From: an uncultured Prevotellaceae bacterium
GTDB lineage: Bacteria; Bacteroidota; Bacteroidia; Bacteroidales; UBA932
Direction of reading: 5' to 3'
Length of the DNA: 64,000 bases
Assembly: GCA_947166905.1 (NCBI GenBank)
Contig: CAMVFZ010000003.1
Span: forward strand, 94,595-158,594
Of this stretch, positions 22,021 to 28,237 are shown in pieces. The notes under the pieces were generated by a model. The model was not told where the DNA came from and ran no database searches. It was given only the letters and a program-made list of their open reading frames with translations. The position numbers and the translations under genes are program-made. Every line of letters starts with the position of its first letter. Position 1 is the stretch's first letter.

Positions 22021-22055
22021 TATAAAGACGTAAACGTCGCTCTTCTGTGTTTATA
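22021..22055 (+). promoter_or_regulatory. Hairpin leader before lipoprotein 1 of the radical SAM locus
   Basis: The 50-nt gap after the symporter gene contains alternative base pairings. TATAAA (22021-22026) pairs with TTTATA (22050-22055), and TAAAC (22031-22035) pairs with GTTTA (22049-22053). A GACGTAAA block at 22027-22034 recurs in the leader of lipoprotein 2. No clear TAnnTTTG box was seen, so transcription may enter from the symporter gene. Confidence 0.4.
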
Positions 22056-22059
22056 GGGT

Positions 22060-22569
22060 ATGAAACAGAAAGCAATTAGTTTTTATAGAATTCTCCTTGG
22101 AGCCTTGATGGGGCTTCTGGGTTTTGGCTCCTGTGCCAAGAGCGACACTGACCCTGACGATTATCGCGTTATGTATGGCCAGCCTACTGCCACCTATAAG
22201 TTTACTGGTACAGTAAAGGATGAAGCCGGTAAGCCGATAAAGGGGATTAGGGTAGTATTCCACCCTGATTCAAGGATAACCCCGGAATCGGAATCTTTTA
22301 AGGATTATTGCAAATATGAAGTGGATACCCTTTATACGAATGATAAGGGTGAGTTCTCTACGAACAGGCTAAAGTATGACGGGATCACTTTAATGAACGA
22401 GACTCTGGTTGTTTTTGACGATGTTGACGGTGCCGCAGGCGGCGGAGAGTTCCAGAGTGTGAGCCTTGACAAGAATCAGGTAAGCGTAAAGGTAATTGAA
22501 AAGAAGGAAGGCTGGAACACCGGAACTTACGGAATTACCGCCAATGCCGTTTTAAAAAAGAAGGACTAG
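22060..22569 (+). CDS. Putative lipoprotein of an rSAM/lipoprotein system (paralogue 1)
   Basis: A 169-residue lipoprotein starting MKQKAISFYRILLGALMG with lipobox LGFGSC (Cys25). After a short acidic stretch comes MYGQPTATYKFTGTVKDEAG, then a beta-sandwich-like region resembling the carboxypeptidase-regulatory (CnaB-like) fold (GKPIKGIRVVF, VDTLYTNDKGEFSTNRLKYD). Near the C-terminus is the strongly conserved DDVDGAAGGGEFQSVSLDK block. It matches the lipoprotein partner defined by comparative genomics next to a specific radical SAM/SPASM family. The rSAM gene starts 3 nt after its stop, so the pair is surely co-expressed. It could be the modified substrate of the enzyme or a surface partner; the sequence does not decide. 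It has only one Cys, the lipidated one. Confidence 0.8.
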   Translation: MKQKAISFYRILLGALMGLLGFGSCAKSDTDPDDYRVMYGQPTATYKFTGTVKDEAGKPIKGIRVVFHPDSRITPESESFKDYCKYEVDTLYTNDKGEFSTNRLKYDGITLMNETLVVFDDVDGAAGGGEFQSVSLDKNQVSVKVIEKKEGWNTGTYGITANAVLKKKD

Positions 22570-22572
22570 CCT

Positions 22573-23649
22573 ATGGCAGAGCTTTCGCTCAGAAAGCGCC
22601 TGGCGCTTGAAATACACAGAAAGCTGCAGGACGATGTTGATAAAGAGCATCCTCTCCGGCAGCTTTTTTGGGAATGTACGCTTCGATGCAACCTTTCCTG
22701 CCGCCACTGCGGCAGCGACTGCAAGACCGTAAACACGGTTAAGGACATGCCGATAGAAGACTTCTGCAAGGTCCTGGATTCAGTAGCAAAGGTGTATGAT
22801 TCGCATAAGGTGATGATTAACATTACCGGTGGAGAGCCACTGATGCGCCCGGATTTGGAGCGCTGCGGCCGGGCTATCTATGAGCGGGAATTCCCCTGGG
22901 GCATGGTGACCAACGGCTTTGCACTTACTCCTGCGCGCTATAAATCCCTGCTTCAAAGTGGCCTAAGGGCCATGACAATATCCCTTGACGGCCTAAAGGA
23001 AGATCACGACTGGATGCGAGGCCGGATGGGCTCGTTCGACCGCGCTGCTGCGGCCATTAAAATGGTGGTGGACAGTGGAGAAATAGAATTCGACGTAGTC
23101 ACCTGCGTAAACCGCCGAAACCTTGGCCTTCTGTCAGAAATAAAAGAATACCTGATTAGTCTAGGCGTCAAGGAGTGGCGTCTCTTTACCATATTCCCTG
23201 CCGGCCGTGCGGCCTCTGATCCGGACATGAAGCTGGGTGGCGAAGGCCTGCGCACCATGATGGAGTTTATCAAGGCAACCCGCAAGGAGGGCCGGATTAA
23301 ATGCTCCTACGGCTGCGAGGGCTTCATGGGAAGATATGAGGGCGAGGTCCGCGACCACTTCTTCAAATGCCATGCGGGCGTTACGGTTGCCGGCATCCTG
23401 GCCGATGGCTCCATATCCGCCTGCCCCAGCATCCGCGCCGACTATCACCAGGGCAACATTTACACCGATGATTTCATGACTGTCTGGAAAAACGGTTACA
23501 AGCAGTATAGGGACCGCTCCTGGATGAAAAAAGGTGTTTGCGCAGATTGCAAGTACTTCAAATTCTGCCAGGGCAATGGCATGCATCTGCGTGATGCAGA
23601 CGGCAATCTCCTGACTTGCCGACTTTTGGAAATCAACTCAGTAAAATAA
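22573..23649 (+). CDS. Radical SAM/SPASM enzyme of the rSAM/lipoprotein system
   Basis: A 358-residue cytoplasmic radical SAM protein. The [4Fe-4S] cysteines are C39, C43 and C46 in CTLRCNLSCRHCGSDC. The SAM-binding GGEP is in INITGGEPLMRPDL, and further core strands are MVTNGFAL and MTISLDGLKEDHDWMRG. The C-terminal SPASM-type cluster region has CHAGVTVAGILADGSISACP, then GVCADCKYFKFCQGNGMHLR and a final LLTCRL. This resembles the family paired with small lipoproteins in Bacteroidota, whose reaction is unknown. SPASM enzymes usually modify ribosomally made peptides. It starts 3 nt after lipoprotein 1 and ends tail-to-tail with lipoprotein 2 across a shared terminator. Modification of the lipoproteins is inferred, not shown. 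A heme- or PQQ-type maturase role is less likely from sequence. Confidence 0.88.
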   Translation: MAELSLRKRLALEIHRKLQDDVDKEHPLRQLFWECTLRCNLSCRHCGSDCKTVNTVKDMPIEDFCKVLDSVAKVYDSHKVMINITGGEPLMRPDLERCGRAIYEREFPWGMVTNGFALTPARYKSLLQSGLRAMTISLDGLKEDHDWMRGRMGSFDRAAAAIKMVVDSGEIEFDVVTCVNRRNLGLLSEIKEYLISLGVKEWRLFTIFPAGRAASDPDMKLGGEGLRTMMEFIKATRKEGRIKCSYGCEGFMGRYEGEVRDHFFKCHAGVTVAGILADGSISACPSIRADYHQGNIYTDDFMTVWKNGYKQYRDRSWMKKGVCADCKYFKFCQGNGMHLRDADGNLLTCRLLEINSVK

Positions 23650-23650
23650 A

Positions 23651-23680
23651 AAACCGCTCTGAACCCAGAGCGGTTTTTTC
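23651..23680. terminator. Bidirectional intrinsic terminator between rSAM gene and lipoprotein 2
   Basis: AAACCGCTCTG (23651-23661) pairs with CAGAGCGGTTT (23666-23676) around an AACC loop, with a T-run after the stem and an A-run before it. It can therefore end transcription from both converging genes. It begins 2 nt after the rSAM stop codon and ends at the stop of the minus-strand lipoprotein gene. Confidence 0.93.
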
Positions 23681-24174
23681 TATTTCTTCAAGGTGGCGTC
23701 GGCTGTAATGGTGTATCGGCCTTTATAATAAGTGCCGGAGCCTTCTTCGTGCTCTATTTTCATCTGCCTCTTTTCAAGAATCTGGCTCTTGAATTCTCCG
23801 CCGCCTGCGGCGCCATCCACATCGTCCAGGGCTACAATGGCATCACCGGGAAGGGAACCTGCCGCATACTTGAGCCTTTCGGAACAGAATTCTCCTTTTT
23901 CATCGGTATACAAGGTGTCTACATTCCCTTTGACGTAGAATTCGTAATTGGGAGAGCTGGGATCCACCTTTGATTCCGGATTGAATACGATGCGAATACC
24001 TTTGATGGGATTACCGGACTCGTCCTTTACCGTACCGACAAGTTTGAAAATCGCATACGGCTGACCGTACATTTCTTTGCGGGGGGAAGAGAACTTAGAA
24101 CAGCTTCCAAAGCCAAGAATTGTCATGAGTGAGCCAAGAATAATCCTGTAAATAGTATGTGCTTTTTGTTTCAT
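23680..24174 (-). CDS. Putative lipoprotein of an rSAM/lipoprotein system (paralogue 2)
   Basis: A 164-residue paralogue of the lipoprotein at 22060-22569. It starts MKQKAHTIYRIILGSLMT with the same lipobox LGFGSC (Cys25), followed by MYGQPYAIFKLVGTVKDESG, NPIKGIRIVFNPESK, VDTLYTDEKGEFCSERLKY and the conserved LDDVDGAAGGGEF block. It ends YTITADATLKK, against YGITANAVLKK in paralogue 1. Unlike paralogue 1 it has a second Cys (in GEFCSERL). The ATG at 24172-24174 is chosen because it begins the signal peptide shared with paralogue 1; the frame is open further upstream. It has its own promoter and faces the rSAM gene. Two lipoproteins flanking one enzyme suggests alternative substrates or a duplication with divergence. 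Confidence 0.8.
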   Translation of the reverse strand: MKQKAHTIYRIILGSLMTILGFGSCSKFSSPRKEMYGQPYAIFKLVGTVKDESGNPIKGIRIVFNPESKVDPSSPNYEFYVKGNVDTLYTDEKGEFCSERLKYAAGSLPGDAIVALDDVDGAAGGGEFKSQILEKRQMKIEHEEGSGTYYKGRYTITADATLKK

Positions 24175-24193
24175 AGGTTGTCTGTCTTTACGT

Positions 24194-24233
24194 GTAAAAC
24201 ACCAGCAGGTCCGTTTTACGTCGCGCAAAGATA
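24194..24233 (-). promoter_or_regulatory. Promoter -7 box and hairpin leader of lipoprotein 2
   Basis: On the minus strand TATCTTTG (plus 24226-24233) matches the TAnnTTTG box. The leader just after it has GTAAAAC and GTTTTAC (plus 24213-24219 and 24194-24200) as a 7-bp stem with a 12-nt loop. The block GACGTAAA at the 5' side of this stem is also present in the lipoprotein 1 leader. No -33 TTG is visible at the expected distance. Confidence 0.5.
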
Positions 24234-24237
24234 GAAA

Positions 24238-25260
24238 TTATTTTGATATTTCCTTGCAGCAGAGTTCAGCGGCTGCGCGGTCCGGAAGGCAGGAGAGATG
24301 GAAGACCTTTACGGAGCTGACAATCTTTTCTACGGAACTGGTGATGGCATCCATTATTGGACGGTTCCAGCGTATTGCAGAGACGGAGCCGTAAAGGGCG
24401 GCGTAGGCGTTGAGACCGGAGTCGCGTGCAATGCTGTTTTCCGGGGCCTGCTCCAGACGGACGATGGCATTAAGCGGGGCGCAAACATTTCTGTAGCAGG
24501 GAGTTTTGCCACTCCACGGGGTGCCGTAAACGCAGGGCTTTCCGTCCTGGGCAAAGCCAAGTGCGGGGTTGTCGTCGTTCAGAAGGTCCGTTCCCTGAAT
24601 ATTCTCCAGCCAAAGGCGGCTGTGGGTGCTCTTGCCTGTACCGCTCTTACCCAGGAAGATATTGGCCTTGCCCTTGTATCCAATGACCGATGCGTGAATC
24701 AGTAGAACCCCTTTCAGCGCGCTCACGTAGGTAAAATTCATCATCAGGGCGGTAGAAAGCTGGAATACAATCGCCGATGCCCCAAGGCTCTTCGCTACGT
24801 AAAGCTCGCTTTCCCTGAAGTCTTCGCTCATGCTCAGAATTGCCGATGGTTCCCCGGTTTCCGGATGCTCGTCCAGAGTAAAACGGGGGCAATTGTCGTG
24901 CTCGTAAATACTGAAGTAGGGGAGTTGCGACTGCACATGAGTCATAAGCTTGCCCAGCTGAGGAGCCTTGTCAAGTCCGCGGCGTACGGTTATGGTAAAA
25001 GCCGGATCGCCGCTGTCGCAGATAAACGGGGCGTATTGTGAAAGATCCAGGCCGCGGGCTCCGGGGAGGATCTCCTCGCGGGTCTGGATTAGCGTACGGT
25101 GGGGAACATCGTCGCCGGCTCTAGTGGGGCGGATATCCAGGCCAGCCTCTCCGCGGCTTGCCCTGGCAATACGATCCTGAACCACCGGGGAGTACTCCAT
25201 CTCGCAAAGCGGAGCCTCCAGTTTCACTTCAAACACTATCCCAGCTACTTTGTATTTCAT
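24238..25260 (-). CDS. HPr kinase/phosphorylase C-terminal-domain-like P-loop protein
   Basis: A 340-residue cytoplasmic protein. The C-terminal half (about 175-340) resembles the HprK kinase fold: GVLLIHASVIGYKGKANIFL, then the Walker A GKSGTGKSTHSRLW, then LLNDDNPALGF and the GTPWSGKTPCYRN stretch. Stand-alone HprK-like domains of this type occur in several peptide-modification clusters; there is no PTS context here. The N-terminal half (about 1-165) has no family I recognise. It starts with a beta-rich stretch (YKVAGIVFEVKLEAP). The gene lies 24 nt after truB on the same strand, so it may be read from the truB transcript. It lies 63 nt before lipoprotein 2, which has its own promoter. A link to the rSAM/lipoprotein genes is therefore plausible from adjacency but not proven. 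It is more likely a protein or small-molecule kinase than true HprK. Confidence 0.72.
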   Translation of the reverse strand: MKYKVAGIVFEVKLEAPLCEMEYSPVVQDRIARASRGEAGLDIRPTRAGDDVPHRTLIQTREEILPGARGLDLSQYAPFICDSGDPAFTITVRRGLDKAPQLGKLMTHVQSQLPYFSIYEHDNCPRFTLDEHPETGEPSAILSMSEDFRESELYVAKSLGASAIVFQLSTALMMNFTYVSALKGVLLIHASVIGYKGKANIFLGKSGTGKSTHSRLWLENIQGTDLLNDDNPALGFAQDGKPCVYGTPWSGKTPCYRNVCAPLNAIVRLEQAPENSIARDSGLNAYAALYGSVSAIRWNRPIMDAITSSVEKIVSSVKVFHLSCLPDRAAAELCCKEISK

Positions 25261-25284
25261 ACGCTTCTTCTGATTTTCAATTCA

Positions 25285-26223
25285 TTACGCTTTGGGTGGA
25301 GCAAAAAGTTCTGCGGCGTCAGCCAAAGACAGCGCAGATTCTACCCTGAAGCCGCCGCAGGCGGTGCGGCACAGGCTGTCCAGGTGGGCGCCTGTGCCCA
25401 GGGCTTCGCCCAGATCGCGTGCAAAGGCACGTACATACGTGCCTTTGCTGCACGCGATGCGCACCTCTGCGCGCGGCAGCCCCAAACCGCTATAATCGTT
25501 CACGCAAATGCGTGAACTTGCGGTTTGGGGACTGCCTGATTTGTCAATACTGGGGGAGGGGCTCCCCCAAACCCCCACGGCCTCCGGCCGTATCTTTTTC
25601 TCCGTGGCAAAGCTCAGTATCTCTACCTCCGTGATGCGTATTATCTGCTTGCTAAGCAGGGTCTCGGCGGCACTGTCCAGAGATTGCCGGTCGGAGCCGG
25701 CAATGACGGTCATGCCCGACCCTGATCGGGCATCCCGGTACATCTTACGTGCAAGCTCATAAGCCCGCACCCCATCAACGCTCTTGGCAGAAAACAGCGG
25801 AGCAATTTGCTCCTGCTCTCCCACGAAACCCTTTAGCGCCTCAGCCACAGAAGCCTCGCAAACCCCATCCACGGGATAAAACCTGTCAATCGGCTTCTCC
25901 AAATCGTAAGACGGCGTAGTAGCCCCGAAGGTCACCCCAGCCACATACTCCTTATCGCTTCTTTGGATTTCCTCTGCAAGACGCGTAGCCTTGCCAACAC
26001 ATATAATAAGCACCCCGGTAGCCAAAGGATCCAGCGTACCGGCGTGCCCAACTTTCAAATTCTTCTGTCCGAAGTGCTTCTTTGCGGCAAACTTGAGTTT
26101 TCTAACAACATCGGCCGACGTCCATCTGTAAGGCTTGTCCACAGGGATAATTATACCCTCCGGGTAGTCGCCGATGTCCCGGGACAGTACACCCGTCCCA
26201 CGGTTTGCCACAAGCGCCGCCAT
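25285..26223 (-). CDS. truB: tRNA pseudouridine-55 synthase TruB, with two in-frame repeat-derived insertions
   Basis: Converts U55 in the T-loop of tRNAs to pseudouridine. Core motifs are intact: PVDKPYRWTSADVVRKLK, catalytic Asp65 in GHAGTLDPLATGVL, KEYVAGVTFG, RAYELAR and CSKGTYVRAFARDLGEALG. At 312 residues it is about 70 longer than usual for Bacteroidota TruB. The excess sits in two places: residues about 164-183 and about 212-248. Both are encoded by clusters of perfect inverted repeats (25683-25733 and 25480-25590). There is also an extra N-terminal stretch of about 20 residues. The start ATG overlaps the rpiB stop (TAATG at 26221-26225). The insertions are in a peripheral part of the fold, so activity is probably kept. 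Confidence 0.93.
   Translation of the reverse strand: MAALVANRGTGVLSRDIGDYPEGIIIPVDKPYRWTSADVVRKLKFAAKKHFGQKNLKVGHAGTLDPLATGVLIICVGKATRLAEEIQRSDKEYVAGVTFGATTPSYDLEKPIDRFYPVDGVCEASVAEALKGFVGEQEQIAPLFSAKSVDGVRAYELARKMYRDARSGSGMTVIAGSDRQSLDSAAETLLSKQIIRITEVEILSFATEKKIRPEAVGVWGSPSPSIDKSGSPQTASSRICVNDYSGLGLPRAEVRIACSKGTYVRAFARDLGEALGTGAHLDSLCRTACGGFRVESALSLADAAELFAPPKA
25480..25590. repeat. Cluster of palindromic repeats inside truB (insert 2)
   Basis: Perfect inverted repeats in a row: CCCCAAACCGC (25480-25490) with its complement at 25520-25530, enclosing GTTCACGC/GCGTGAAC (25498-25505 and 25510-25517). TGGGGGAG/CTCCCCCA (25551-25558 and 25562-25569) follows, then ACGGCC/GGCCGT near 25577-25591. 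The unit with the TACTGGGGG...CTCCCCCAA core recurs at 63761-63788. Confidence 0.85.
25683..25733. repeat. Pair of palindromes inside truB (insert 1)
   Basis: ATTGCCGG/CCGGCAAT (25683-25690 and 25697-25704) and ATGCCCGA/TCGGGCAT (25712-25719 and 25726-25733) are two perfect 8-bp inverted repeats, each with a 6-nt loop. They encode the non-conserved TruB stretch containing TVIAGSDRQS. Confidence 0.85.
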
Positions 26224-26675
26224 TACTTGCAGTCTATCTTGTCTATTCTTCTCTGGTGGCGTCCACCCTCGAACTCGGTCTCGAGCCAGGTCTTGACAAG
26301 CTCCTGAGCAACCTCGTAAGGGATGAATCTGGCCGGCATAACAAGCACGTTAGCGTTGTTGTGACGCTTTACCAGGGCGGCGATTTCCGGAGCCCATGCA
26401 AGGCCTGCGCGGATGCCCTTATGCTTGTTCAGAGTGATAGCCATTCCGTTTCCGGTGCCGCAAAGCGCAATACCAAGGTCTACCTTTCCGGCCAGTACGG
26501 CCTCTGCCAGCGGATGGGCAACATCAGTGTAGTCCATGCTGTCGGTAGTATCGGTGCCAAAGTTTACAACCTCTACTCCATTGCCCTTAAGCCAGGCGAC
26601 AAGGTTGTTCTTATATTCCACTCCGGCGTGGTCGTTGGCAATGCCAATCTTTCCGGAAAATGCTAACTTGCTCAT
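26223..26675 (-). CDS. rpiB: Ribose-5-phosphate isomerase B (RpiB/LacAB family)
   Basis: Interconverts ribose 5-phosphate and ribulose 5-phosphate in the pentose phosphate pathway. The 150-residue protein is of normal RpiB length. Motifs: KIGIANDHAGVEYK at the N-terminus, and the catalytic Cys and anion hole in GIALCGTGNGMAITLNKHKGIRAGL, with HNNANVLVMPARFI following. It is cytoplasmic. It lies between gltX (2-nt gap) and truB (overlap) in what looks like the tail of the dcw transcript. Allose-6-phosphate isomerase activity is a known side activity of the family. Confidence 0.93.
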   Translation of the reverse strand: MSKLAFSGKIGIANDHAGVEYKNNLVAWLKGNGVEVVNFGTDTTDSMDYTDVAHPLAEAVLAGKVDLGIALCGTGNGMAITLNKHKGIRAGLAWAPEIAALVKRHNNANVLVMPARFIPYEVAQELVKTWLETEFEGGRHQRRIDKIDCK

Positions 26676-26677
26676 AT

Positions 26678-28237
26678 TTAGCTGTTTTTGGTTTTAGCAA
26701 AGTCAAGACGGGCTGCAAACTCGTCGCGTCCGATAAAGGACACGATGTCTGCGATTCCAAGGCCGCTGGATGCGCCGGTAAGGGCCAGGCGCAGGCAGTT
26801 CATAACCTTGCCCATCGGCCATTCACGCTCGCGGATATAGGCCTCAAGATGCTCTTCCACGTTCTCTTTGGTAAGCGGGAAGTCACCCTTGATAATGCAG
26901 TCAGCAGCCTCGTAGGCCATGGCCACATTCTCTTCTCTCCAAAACTTGTCCACGTCCTTCTGCACGAACTCCTTAGGTGCTGCAAACAGATAGGAAGCGA
27001 TATCCCAGAAGTCTGCTACGAAGGTAGCCCTCTCTTTGATAAGGGCCACTACCTTTTCTACGTAGGCGGCATCGGCCTTTACGCCGTGAGCCTCAAGAAC
27101 AGGCATGAAAAGCTTTGCAAGCTCTGCGTCGGACTTCATCCTAAGATACTCGCGGTTGTACCAGCGGGCCTTCTCGGGGTTGAAGCGTGCGCCTGATTTA
27201 ACTATACGGTCAAGTGAGAATACAGGGATGAGCTCATCTATGGTAAAGAGCTCGCGGTCGTCGCCGGGATTCCAGCCAAGGAAGGCCAGAAGGTTTACGA
27301 AGGCCTCCGGGAAGTATCCGTCCTCGCGGTAGCCACGGGAAACCTCGCCCTCCGGGTTAACCCATTTGAGCGGGAATACGGGGAAGCCCAGCTTGTCGCC
27401 GTCACGCTTGCTCAGTTTACCCTTTCCGTCCGGCTTAAGCAGCAGGGAAAGGTGGGCGAAGCGCGGCTGGGTATCTGTCCAGCCAAAGGCCTTGTACAGC
27501 AGGTAATGAAGCGGCAGCGAAGGCAGCCACTCCTCACCGCGGATAACCTCTGAAATCTCCATCAGATGGTCGTCCACAATGTTGGCCAGGTGGTAAGTGG
27601 GGAGCTCGTCGGCACGCTTCCAAAGCACTTTGTCGTCAAGCGTAGAGGTATTTACCTCAATATGGCCGCGGATAAGGTCGTCCATTGCGACCACGGTATC
27701 CTCCGGCATCTTGAAACGTACTGTCCAGTCTGTACGCTCCTCCAGCAGGCGCGCGGTCTCTTCTGCGCTAAGCGTCAGGGAGTTACGCAGCTCCATGCGG
27801 GTCTTCTGGTTATAGATGAAGGTCTGTCCTGCGGCCTCTGCTGCAGCACGGCGCTCGTTCAGTTCTTCTGCGGTATCGAAGGCATAGTAAGCGTTGCCGC
27901 TTGCAACCAGCTGGTCTGCGTACTGCCTGTATATGGGCTTGCGCTCGCTCTGGCGGTAAGGGGCATGCGGGTGTTTTGCCGATGCTACGGAAACGACGTT
28001 TCCTGCCTCGTCTACGCCCTCATCGGCCTTGATGCCACACCATGCAAGGGCCTCGATGATGTATTTTTCTGCACCCGGAACAAAGCGGTGTGAATCAGTA
28101 TCCTCAATCCTTATTATGAAATCTCCGCCGTTCTGCTTGGCATACAGGTAGTTGTAAAGCGCAGTACGTACGCCGCCCATGTGAAGCGGGCCGGTAGGCG
28201 AGGGAGCAAATCTTACTCTTGTCCTTCTCTTATCCAT
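26678..28237 (-). CDS. gltX: Glutamyl-tRNA synthetase
   Basis: Class I aminoacyl-tRNA synthetase that charges tRNA-Glu. The 519-residue protein starts RTRVRFAPSPTGPLHMGGVRT with the HIGH-like site (residues about 11-20), has IIRIEDTDSHRF, and the KMSKS-like loop in GKLSKRDGDKLGFPVF. The C-terminal helical anticodon-binding part runs to the end. The four-Cys zinc knuckle of proteobacterial GltX is absent, as is common in Bacteroidota. Start codon ATG overlaps the ftsZ stop (TAATG at 28235-28239), so the dcw cluster runs into gltX without a gap. Confidence 0.95.
   Translation of the reverse strand: MDKRRTRVRFAPSPTGPLHMGGVRTALYNYLYAKQNGGDFIIRIEDTDSHRFVPGAEKYIIEALAWCGIKADEGVDEAGNVVSVASAKHPHAPYRQSERKPIYRQYADQLVASGNAYYAFDTAEELNERRAAAEAAGQTFIYNQKTRMELRNSLTLSAEETARLLEERTDWTVRFKMPEDTVVAMDDLIRGHIEVNTSTLDDKVLWKRADELPTYHLANIVDDHLMEISEVIRGEEWLPSLPLHYLLYKAFGWTDTQPRFAHLSLLLKPDGKGKLSKRDGDKLGFPVFPLKWVNPEGEVSRGYREDGYFPEAFVNLLAFLGWNPGDDRELFTIDELIPVFSLDRIVKSGARFNPEKARWYNREYLRMKSDAELAKLFMPVLEAHGVKADAAYVEKVVALIKERATFVADFWDIASYLFAAPKEFVQKDVDKFWREENVAMAYEAADCIIKGDFPLTKENVEEHLEAYIREREWPMGKVMNCLRLALTGASSGLGIADIVSFIGRDEFAARLDFAKTKNS

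Follow-up and report, generated by a model that had tools for sequence, protein, structure and literature searches.

A radical SAM/SPASM enzyme and its adjoining lipoproteins in an uncultured Prevotellaceae bacterium: X-Tyr-Gly-x-Pro as the predicted target motif

The window analysed here is a stretch of 64,000 nucleotides (nt) from an uncultured Prevotellaceae bacterium (contig CAMVFZ010000003.1, positions 94,595 to 158,594; assembly GCA_947166905.1, 2.1 Mb in 29 contigs). It carries the gene of a radical S-adenosylmethionine (SAM) enzyme with a SPASM domain (rSAM) between two lipoprotein genes, and we analysed this locus together with related loci from other genomes. Lipoprotein 1 (22060-22569, + strand; 169 amino acids, aa) is followed after 3 nt by the rSAM gene (22573-23649, + strand; 358 aa). 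Lipoprotein 2 (23680-24174, - strand; 164 aa when started at its ATG; the open reading frame (ORF) as called mechanically begins upstream of this, at TTG 24228) converges on the rSAM across a gap of 30 nt. A bidirectional terminator with a perfect 14-pair stem and T-tracts on both strands (23648-23679) is common to the rSAM and lipoprotein 2; the number of terminator-like sites is itself uninformative, since five were found in the region where 4.2 were expected. The two lipoproteins share 53% identity. An earlier note on this DNA had described the enzyme, the lipoprotein 3 nt upstream of it and a paralogous, convergent lipoprotein across a shared terminator, and the coordinates, the stem and the family matches below all bear this out.

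The rSAM scored 557.1 bits against TIGR04133 (E 1.3e-167; curated cut-off 425), and lipoproteins 1 and 2 scored 92.2 and 77.8 bits against TIGR04134 (E 3e-26 and 8.6e-22; curated cut-off 39.8). In the bacterium's own genome a single rSAM lies above the TIGR04133 cut-off, and the only proteins above the TIGR04134 cut-off are these two lipoproteins. The enzyme carries its cluster-binding stretch, C39-x3-C43-x2-C46-G-S-D-C50, at 22687-22722 (+ strand), where C39/C43/C46 make up CxxxCxxC; its SPASM domain is recognised by Pfam at E 7.1e-8. Alignment of 46 members showed C39, C43, C46, G47, S48 and C50 to be invariant, as are the SPASM cysteines C266, C284, C323, C326, C332 and C349. CGSxC was present in 113 of the 114 rSAM sequences in which the cluster stretch could be read; in the other 28 of 142 the stretch was unread because the called start falls behind it. 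The same genome also encodes a His-Xaa-Ser system rSAM, HxsB (G000:C1:113003-113668, L002; 555.5 bits to TIGR03978).

Lipoprotein 1 consists of a signal helix, the lipobox cysteine Cys25, a disordered tether and a beta-sandwich from residue 43. Reading the lipoproteins side by side revealed the motif X-Tyr-Gly-x-Pro (XYGxP) behind the lipobox in every build. In the window it reads Met-Tyr-Gly-Gln-Pro (MYGQP) in both proteins, at residues 38-42 of lipoprotein 1 (22171-22185, + strand) and residues 35-39 of lipoprotein 2 (24058-24072, - strand), with its tyrosine 14 and 11 residues, respectively, behind the lipobox cysteine. An AlphaFold2 model of lipoprotein 1 gave a mean pLDDT (predicted local distance difference test) of 88.3, falling to 57 for residues 31-40; the underlying alignment was chosen by motif and served the structure model only. 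The model matches common beta-sandwiches, namely catechol dioxygenases, pilin and CnaB domains, with TM-scores by query of at most 0.46 among the matches listed.

Because selection by the motif was to be avoided, a profile was seeded solely with sequence behind it and run for four rounds, the later of which took in the matched stretches. This profile gathered 137 lipoproteins, of which 132 carried YG and 119 carried YGxP against a shuffled expectation of 2.6 for YGxP; in one of the 132, a 63-aa fragment (L203), YG occurs by chance. Across the 134 proteins aligned (three shorter than 100 aa were omitted), at a mean identity of 26%, Y39 and G40 were each conserved in 132 and P42 in 120. X varies while YG is constant: in the filtered partner set (defined below), which holds 179 XYGxP instances, this position is occupied by E 52, C 39, M 29, K 19, V 15, A 8 and L 7 times, among others. 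The tyrosine directly follows the lipobox cysteine (+1) in 36 of 120 resolved cases and mostly lies 6-16 residues behind it in the rest, with 17 cases unresolved. Among lipoprotein-like ORFs, the motif was found in 117 of 187 within 600 nt of an rSAM gene compared to 3 of 282 beyond 3 kb. An L/M/I-G-[FILV] stretch before the cysteine was likewise commoner in near ORFs (62/153) than in far ones (7/257), which is only a hint that the signal peptide serves as a leader, since YG was a criterion for choosing the near ORFs and chance ORFs are included among the far ones. The tyrosine of XYGxP is very probably the target site of the rSAM. The earlier note had proposed that the lipoproteins are modified in the cytoplasm before export; this is plausible, and the motif now provides a likely, predicted site.

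The rSAM and the lipoprotein form a two-gene unit, as the earlier note had held. Of 393 genomes sampled from the order, 87 hold TIGR04133 above its cut-off, compared with 2 of 296 sampled from the phylum, one of these two being the bacterium's own. Among the 393 order genomes, the rSAM occurred in 94 (E 1e-80) and the lipoprotein family in 80 (E 1e-5), both together in 69, the rSAM only in 25 and the lipoprotein only in 11 (Fisher 1.7e-43). We collected 139 relative rSAM loci (8 + 112 + 19), making 140 with the window. Within 4 kb at these loci the only widely recurring families were the rSAM (135) and the lipoprotein (107), followed by a family with 12; the count used ORFs of at least 60 aa, so that shorter or very diverse partners could escape it. 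RRE proteins, proteases, transporters and kinases are not among the widely recurring neighbours in this range. Of 123 rSAM genes, 28 have at least two lipoproteins no more than 3 kb away, and the duplication that had been thought special to this copy is thus common. At three loci (L006, L007 and L008) the sole lipoprotein found is convergent and 1-2 nt from the rSAM, the layout of lipoprotein 2 in the window.

A motif-independent protein search through plasmid records returned three records at E 1e-40, all three of which carry the motif: one from Phocaeicola massiliensis, with CEYGTP in a lipoprotein downstream; one from Parabacteroides distasonis, with CEYGSP (WP_036633130.1/WP_005853865.1); and Treponema saccharophilum plasmid pTS1, with SCYGMP (L281). 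Phocaeicola oris (L005) also fits the pattern. The copy in T. saccharophilum suggests that the rSAM/lipoprotein pair moves between phyla, and the pTS1 copy was likely transferred from Bacteroidota. On this 424 kb spirochaete plasmid the gene adjoining the pair is annotated as an Mpi-family invertase. Viral contigs yielded 38 rSAM relatives with a best identity of 36%, and a search for motif ORFs at 6 of these 38 gave nothing convincing; phage records held no rSAM relative at E 1e-40.

Motif partners are not confined to beta-sandwich lipoproteins. We recounted them over 142 rSAM genes with a strict filter that required a signal or a match to the beta-sandwich profile, because motif ORFs also occur in chance frames (for example at L150, L172, L198, L211 and L147). 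The strict script found a believable motif partner for 122 of the 142 genes, and five added by eye (L111, L205, L208, L162 and L169) brought this to 127; at three (L113, L182 and L212) the search met contig ends. Some loci that lack a beta-sandwich protein carry other motif proteins, which have only a signal and the motif in common and in some cases hold two or three motif copies. Coiled-coil-like lipoproteins contain one to three YGSP/YGPP sites (L101, L104, L106, L111, L118, L123 and L124), and short Lys/Asp/Ser-rich lipoproteins have KYGxP-like sites near the C-terminus (L114, L122, L125, L126, L130, L132, L135 and L141, of which L114, L122 and L125 additionally hold beta-sandwich proteins). 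Tiny proteins at L205-L208, the one at L205 being 64 aa long, carry TACYGPxP at the lipobox, and a beta-sandwich variant at L117, L127 and L137 has AQYG in place of the lipobox. In the coiled-coil-like lipoproteins beside the rSAM at L104, L106, L111, L118 and L123, YGSPE sites are spaced along the chain, in some of them near the C-terminus too. Directly downstream of the TIGR04133 enzyme at L140 lies a proline-rich repeat protein of 118 aa (2037-2393, - strand) with three ECIYGPPPGF-type repeats and no evident signal peptide, which from its sequence looks like a classical peptide precursor.

The spliceases PlpXY and the spliceotides are reportedly the subject of Morinaka 2018 and Scott 2022, which are known to us through later papers. 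According to the accessible part of PMC10533398, PlpXY acts on X-Tyr-Gly with X free, its natural sites being MYG and LYG; the site is part of PIRP(L/G)YGLPI-type splice tags, for which several positions in a test protein proved unacceptable, TyrEx labelling made use of a GYG site, and 939 predicted splicease systems are cited. The pattern described here, with X varying freely and YG fixed, is the one that a splicease would need. In a tree of 36 rSAM rows, named from their best NCBIfam matches, TIGR04133 (19 rows) grouped with nif11_3/GDL-like enzymes (10 rows) against seven NirJ/AhbD-, MftC-, StsB- and ScmE-like rows with support 100/98; long-branch rows (L002, L042, L044, L039 and L041) and near copies (L241, L043 and L036) were omitted. 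Because the motif is conserved in unrelated builds and because of this tree grouping, we predict that the tyrosine is excised from the tether before export. We therefore favour, with a probability of roughly 0.52, a two-gene module whose rSAM acts before export on the motif tyrosine, likely by PlpX-like excision as tyramine; for tyramine excision at XYGxP as such, the odds appear about even.

Under this mechanism both lipoproteins start out with a signal helix, as the model has it, and, as the sequence shows, with the motif tyrosine behind the lipobox cysteine. Binding of the motif by the enzyme would take place in the cytoplasm, where the signal peptide might assist through its conserved L-G-F stretch. 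Cleavage of SAM would then generate a radical on the tyrosine, most of which would leave as tyramine, a loss of C8H9NO from the protein. As export and lipidation would come after excision, the resulting ketoamide would end up beside the membrane anchor. There it might trap proteases or bond covalently with an amine partner, which is speculative; spliceotides are reported as protease inhibitors in the accessible parts of PMC10373908 and PMC11117315. Extended to the whole family, a reading that we hold tentatively and at a little under even odds, many Bacteroidales, as well as at least one spirochaete, would build ketoamide-bearing lipoproteins with a stand-alone splicease that cuts tyramine from the tether, in one branch (Cys-Tyr-Gly) immediately after the lipidated cysteine, and so displays a reactive backbone ketone at the envelope. 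If so, backbone splicing would modify cell-envelope lipoproteins of gut bacteria (Phocaeicola, Parabacteroides and relatives), structural proteins of the envelope rather than natural-product peptides, and an enzyme seemingly without an adjacent partner protein would be a simple tool to place ketones in proteins. With a near-invariant site, partners of unrelated build and a match to published spliceases, an association known by name becomes testable, with an exact expected mass (a loss of about 135.07 Da).

A number of observations weigh against the favoured mechanism. YG is absent from three of the lipoproteins found by the profile (L179, L185 and L201). At six of the 142 rSAM genes the YG partner lacks the proline (L137, L150, L157, L166, L172 and L186), and no motif partner was found within more than 1.3 kb on each side at L116, L121, L147, L198, L199 and L211, of which L198, L199 and L211 belong to the window's own genus. 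The odds given above for target and excision stand despite this recount, because the motif-free collection carries the argument. No PlpY-like partner recurs within 4 kb of the 140 loci (ORFs of at least 60 aa; elsewhere in the genomes it was not sought). PlpX itself is absent from the tree, the support for the grouping with nif11_3/GDL-like enzymes is only 59 when the long-branch rows are kept, and an XYG partner was present at only 3 of 11 loci of the sister clade (L232, L234 and L236; 2.7-4.1 kb fetched). We take TIGR04103 to be the same model as IPR026482. IPR026482 is the family model of PlpX (PMC11002830), and the window rSAM scores 124.6 bits to TIGR04103, far below its cut-off of 725 and about the same as to TIGR04053 (131.9) or heme b synthase (122.1).

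The fold of the enzyme leaves its chemistry undecided, since the rSAM model matches several solved SPASM peptide enzymes at tied Z-scores of 25.6-26.6; no splicease appears by name among the structural matches listed. One of these neighbours, SuiB (5why), belongs to the cross-linking SPASM peptide enzymes, and a three-residue cyclophane, in which the Tyr ring would be bonded to the residue that follows Gly at its beta-carbon with a mass change of -2 Da, would be compatible with 178 of the 179 XYGxP instances, in which that residue has a beta-carbon (T 66, V 26, S 24 and others). We nevertheless consider this cross-link unlikely. Cyclophane (triceptide) maturases join an aromatic residue to the residue two places on and are not known to need Y-G, nor is a cyclophane known to require the fixed glycine and mostly fixed proline; Gly follows the motif Gly, leaving no beta-carbon, in a small protein at L130 and another at L126, although the L126 protein lies outside the filtered partner set and both loci hold other motifs too. 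Nor was any such maturase family recognised by name among the NCBIfam matches listed. Enzymes of the rSAM/SPASM type catalyse many reactions, the window rSAM also matches mycofactocin-type and PqqE-type families, and the epimerase EpeE is among its structural matches, all of which would allow another reaction on Tyr, Gly or X, such as epimerisation, beta-hydroxylation, decarboxylative cleavage or thioether formation. Such a reaction has a modest chance at best, as chemistry on X is improbable where X varies freely and the constancy of YG fits tyramine excision best among the reactions known to us. The motif might instead be merely a docking site, or a lipoprotein feature unrelated to the rSAM, with the modification elsewhere or on another substrate. 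Two positions of the beta-sandwich are near-constant as well (G97 in 134 of 134 and D121 in 128 of 134), but partners without the beta-sandwich have only the motif in common, and proteins as small as those at L132, L135 and L205-L208 (51-71 aa) offer little else to modify, making this account quite improbable.

The remaining proposal concerns the P-loop (PEPCK/HprK-like) gene at 24238-25260 (- strand), which lies upstream of lipoprotein 2 on the same strand, 63 nt away, and which the earlier note thought might prepare or use the product of the rSAM. The adjacency is real, but the HprK-like label is weak: the protein scored 19.2 bits against HprK-related kinase A (TIGR04352; cut-off 200) and 18.8 bits against PEPCK_ATP (cut-off 26.5). 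The kinase was found at none of the 139 relative rSAM loci (flanks of up to 8 kb, many ended by contig ends). Homologues occur in 20 of 41 genomes searched, including the bacterium's own, and none of the 19 kinase loci adjoins an rSAM or lipoprotein gene. Two of the 19 have the order gltX-rpiB-truB-kinase seen in the window and one has the same four genes rearranged, while the other 16 are paralogues of 35-50% identity located elsewhere; one homologue (P0033) is fused to TruB. A role for the kinase in the rSAM/lipoprotein system is therefore rejected as scarcely credible, and we judge the gene to lie outside that system. The earlier note had itself named a kinase that never co-occurs as grounds for refutation, and on this part of its proposal the outcome is negative. 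In the window the gene closes the gltX-rpiB-truB-kinase run (24238-28237, - strand), which ties a kinase-like protein to the tRNA pseudouridine synthase TruB. A separate promoter may serve lipoprotein 2, since TATCTTTG at 24226-24233 (- strand) resembles TAnnTTTG, which we take to be the Bacteroidota -7 box consensus.

The system shows both likenesses to PlpXY and differences from it. Like PlpX, the window enzyme is an rSAM/SPASM protein with the SPASM domain and cysteines in place. Going by the accessible part of the splicease literature, its partners also present X-Tyr-Gly with a variable X, including the natural MYG, and the splice tag LYGLP has the same YGxP spacing as the window motif. 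In contrast to the Nif11/nitrile-hydratase-leader peptides of the known spliceases, the predicted substrates here are mostly exported lipoproteins. A second relative is the GDL-motif rSAM family TIGR03913, which occurs with DUF1843 peptides and belongs to the sister clade. The L232 enzyme (525.9 bits, below the TIGR03913 cut-off of 591.75) accompanies peptides that carry PYGV/LYGV; unlike the lipoproteins described here, these are 57-58 aa long, with no evident signal peptide and no Pro two places behind Gly. At L236 (L187:7016-9147, G238, same order), an rSAM with 233 bits to TIGR03913 and 218 bits to TIGR04103, which has HCGSxC too, precedes a protein of 214 aa whose end consists of six KYGYPC/KYGYPG repeats, by its sequence a likely multi-site precursor. 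We count this locus and L232 in favour of the excision mechanism.

The closest known system is the TIGR04133/TIGR04134 pair itself (rSAM_w_lipo and lipo_with_rSAM), to which the window proteins conform in scoring above both cut-offs and in the adjacency of their genes. As a pair the system is thus not undescribed, contrary to the earlier note. The NCBIfam names rest on association only (kind hypoth_equivalog); we found no reaction for the pair in the sources reached, and neither identifier in the open-access literature searched. Scott 2022, on widespread spliceases, may already include the TIGR04133 family, which would reduce the novelty of our reading, since this depends on that paper. Beyond the NCBIfam definition, the present analysis identifies the shared motif, adds partners of other builds and excludes the kinase, and what is likely new is the probable target of a pair previously named by its association.

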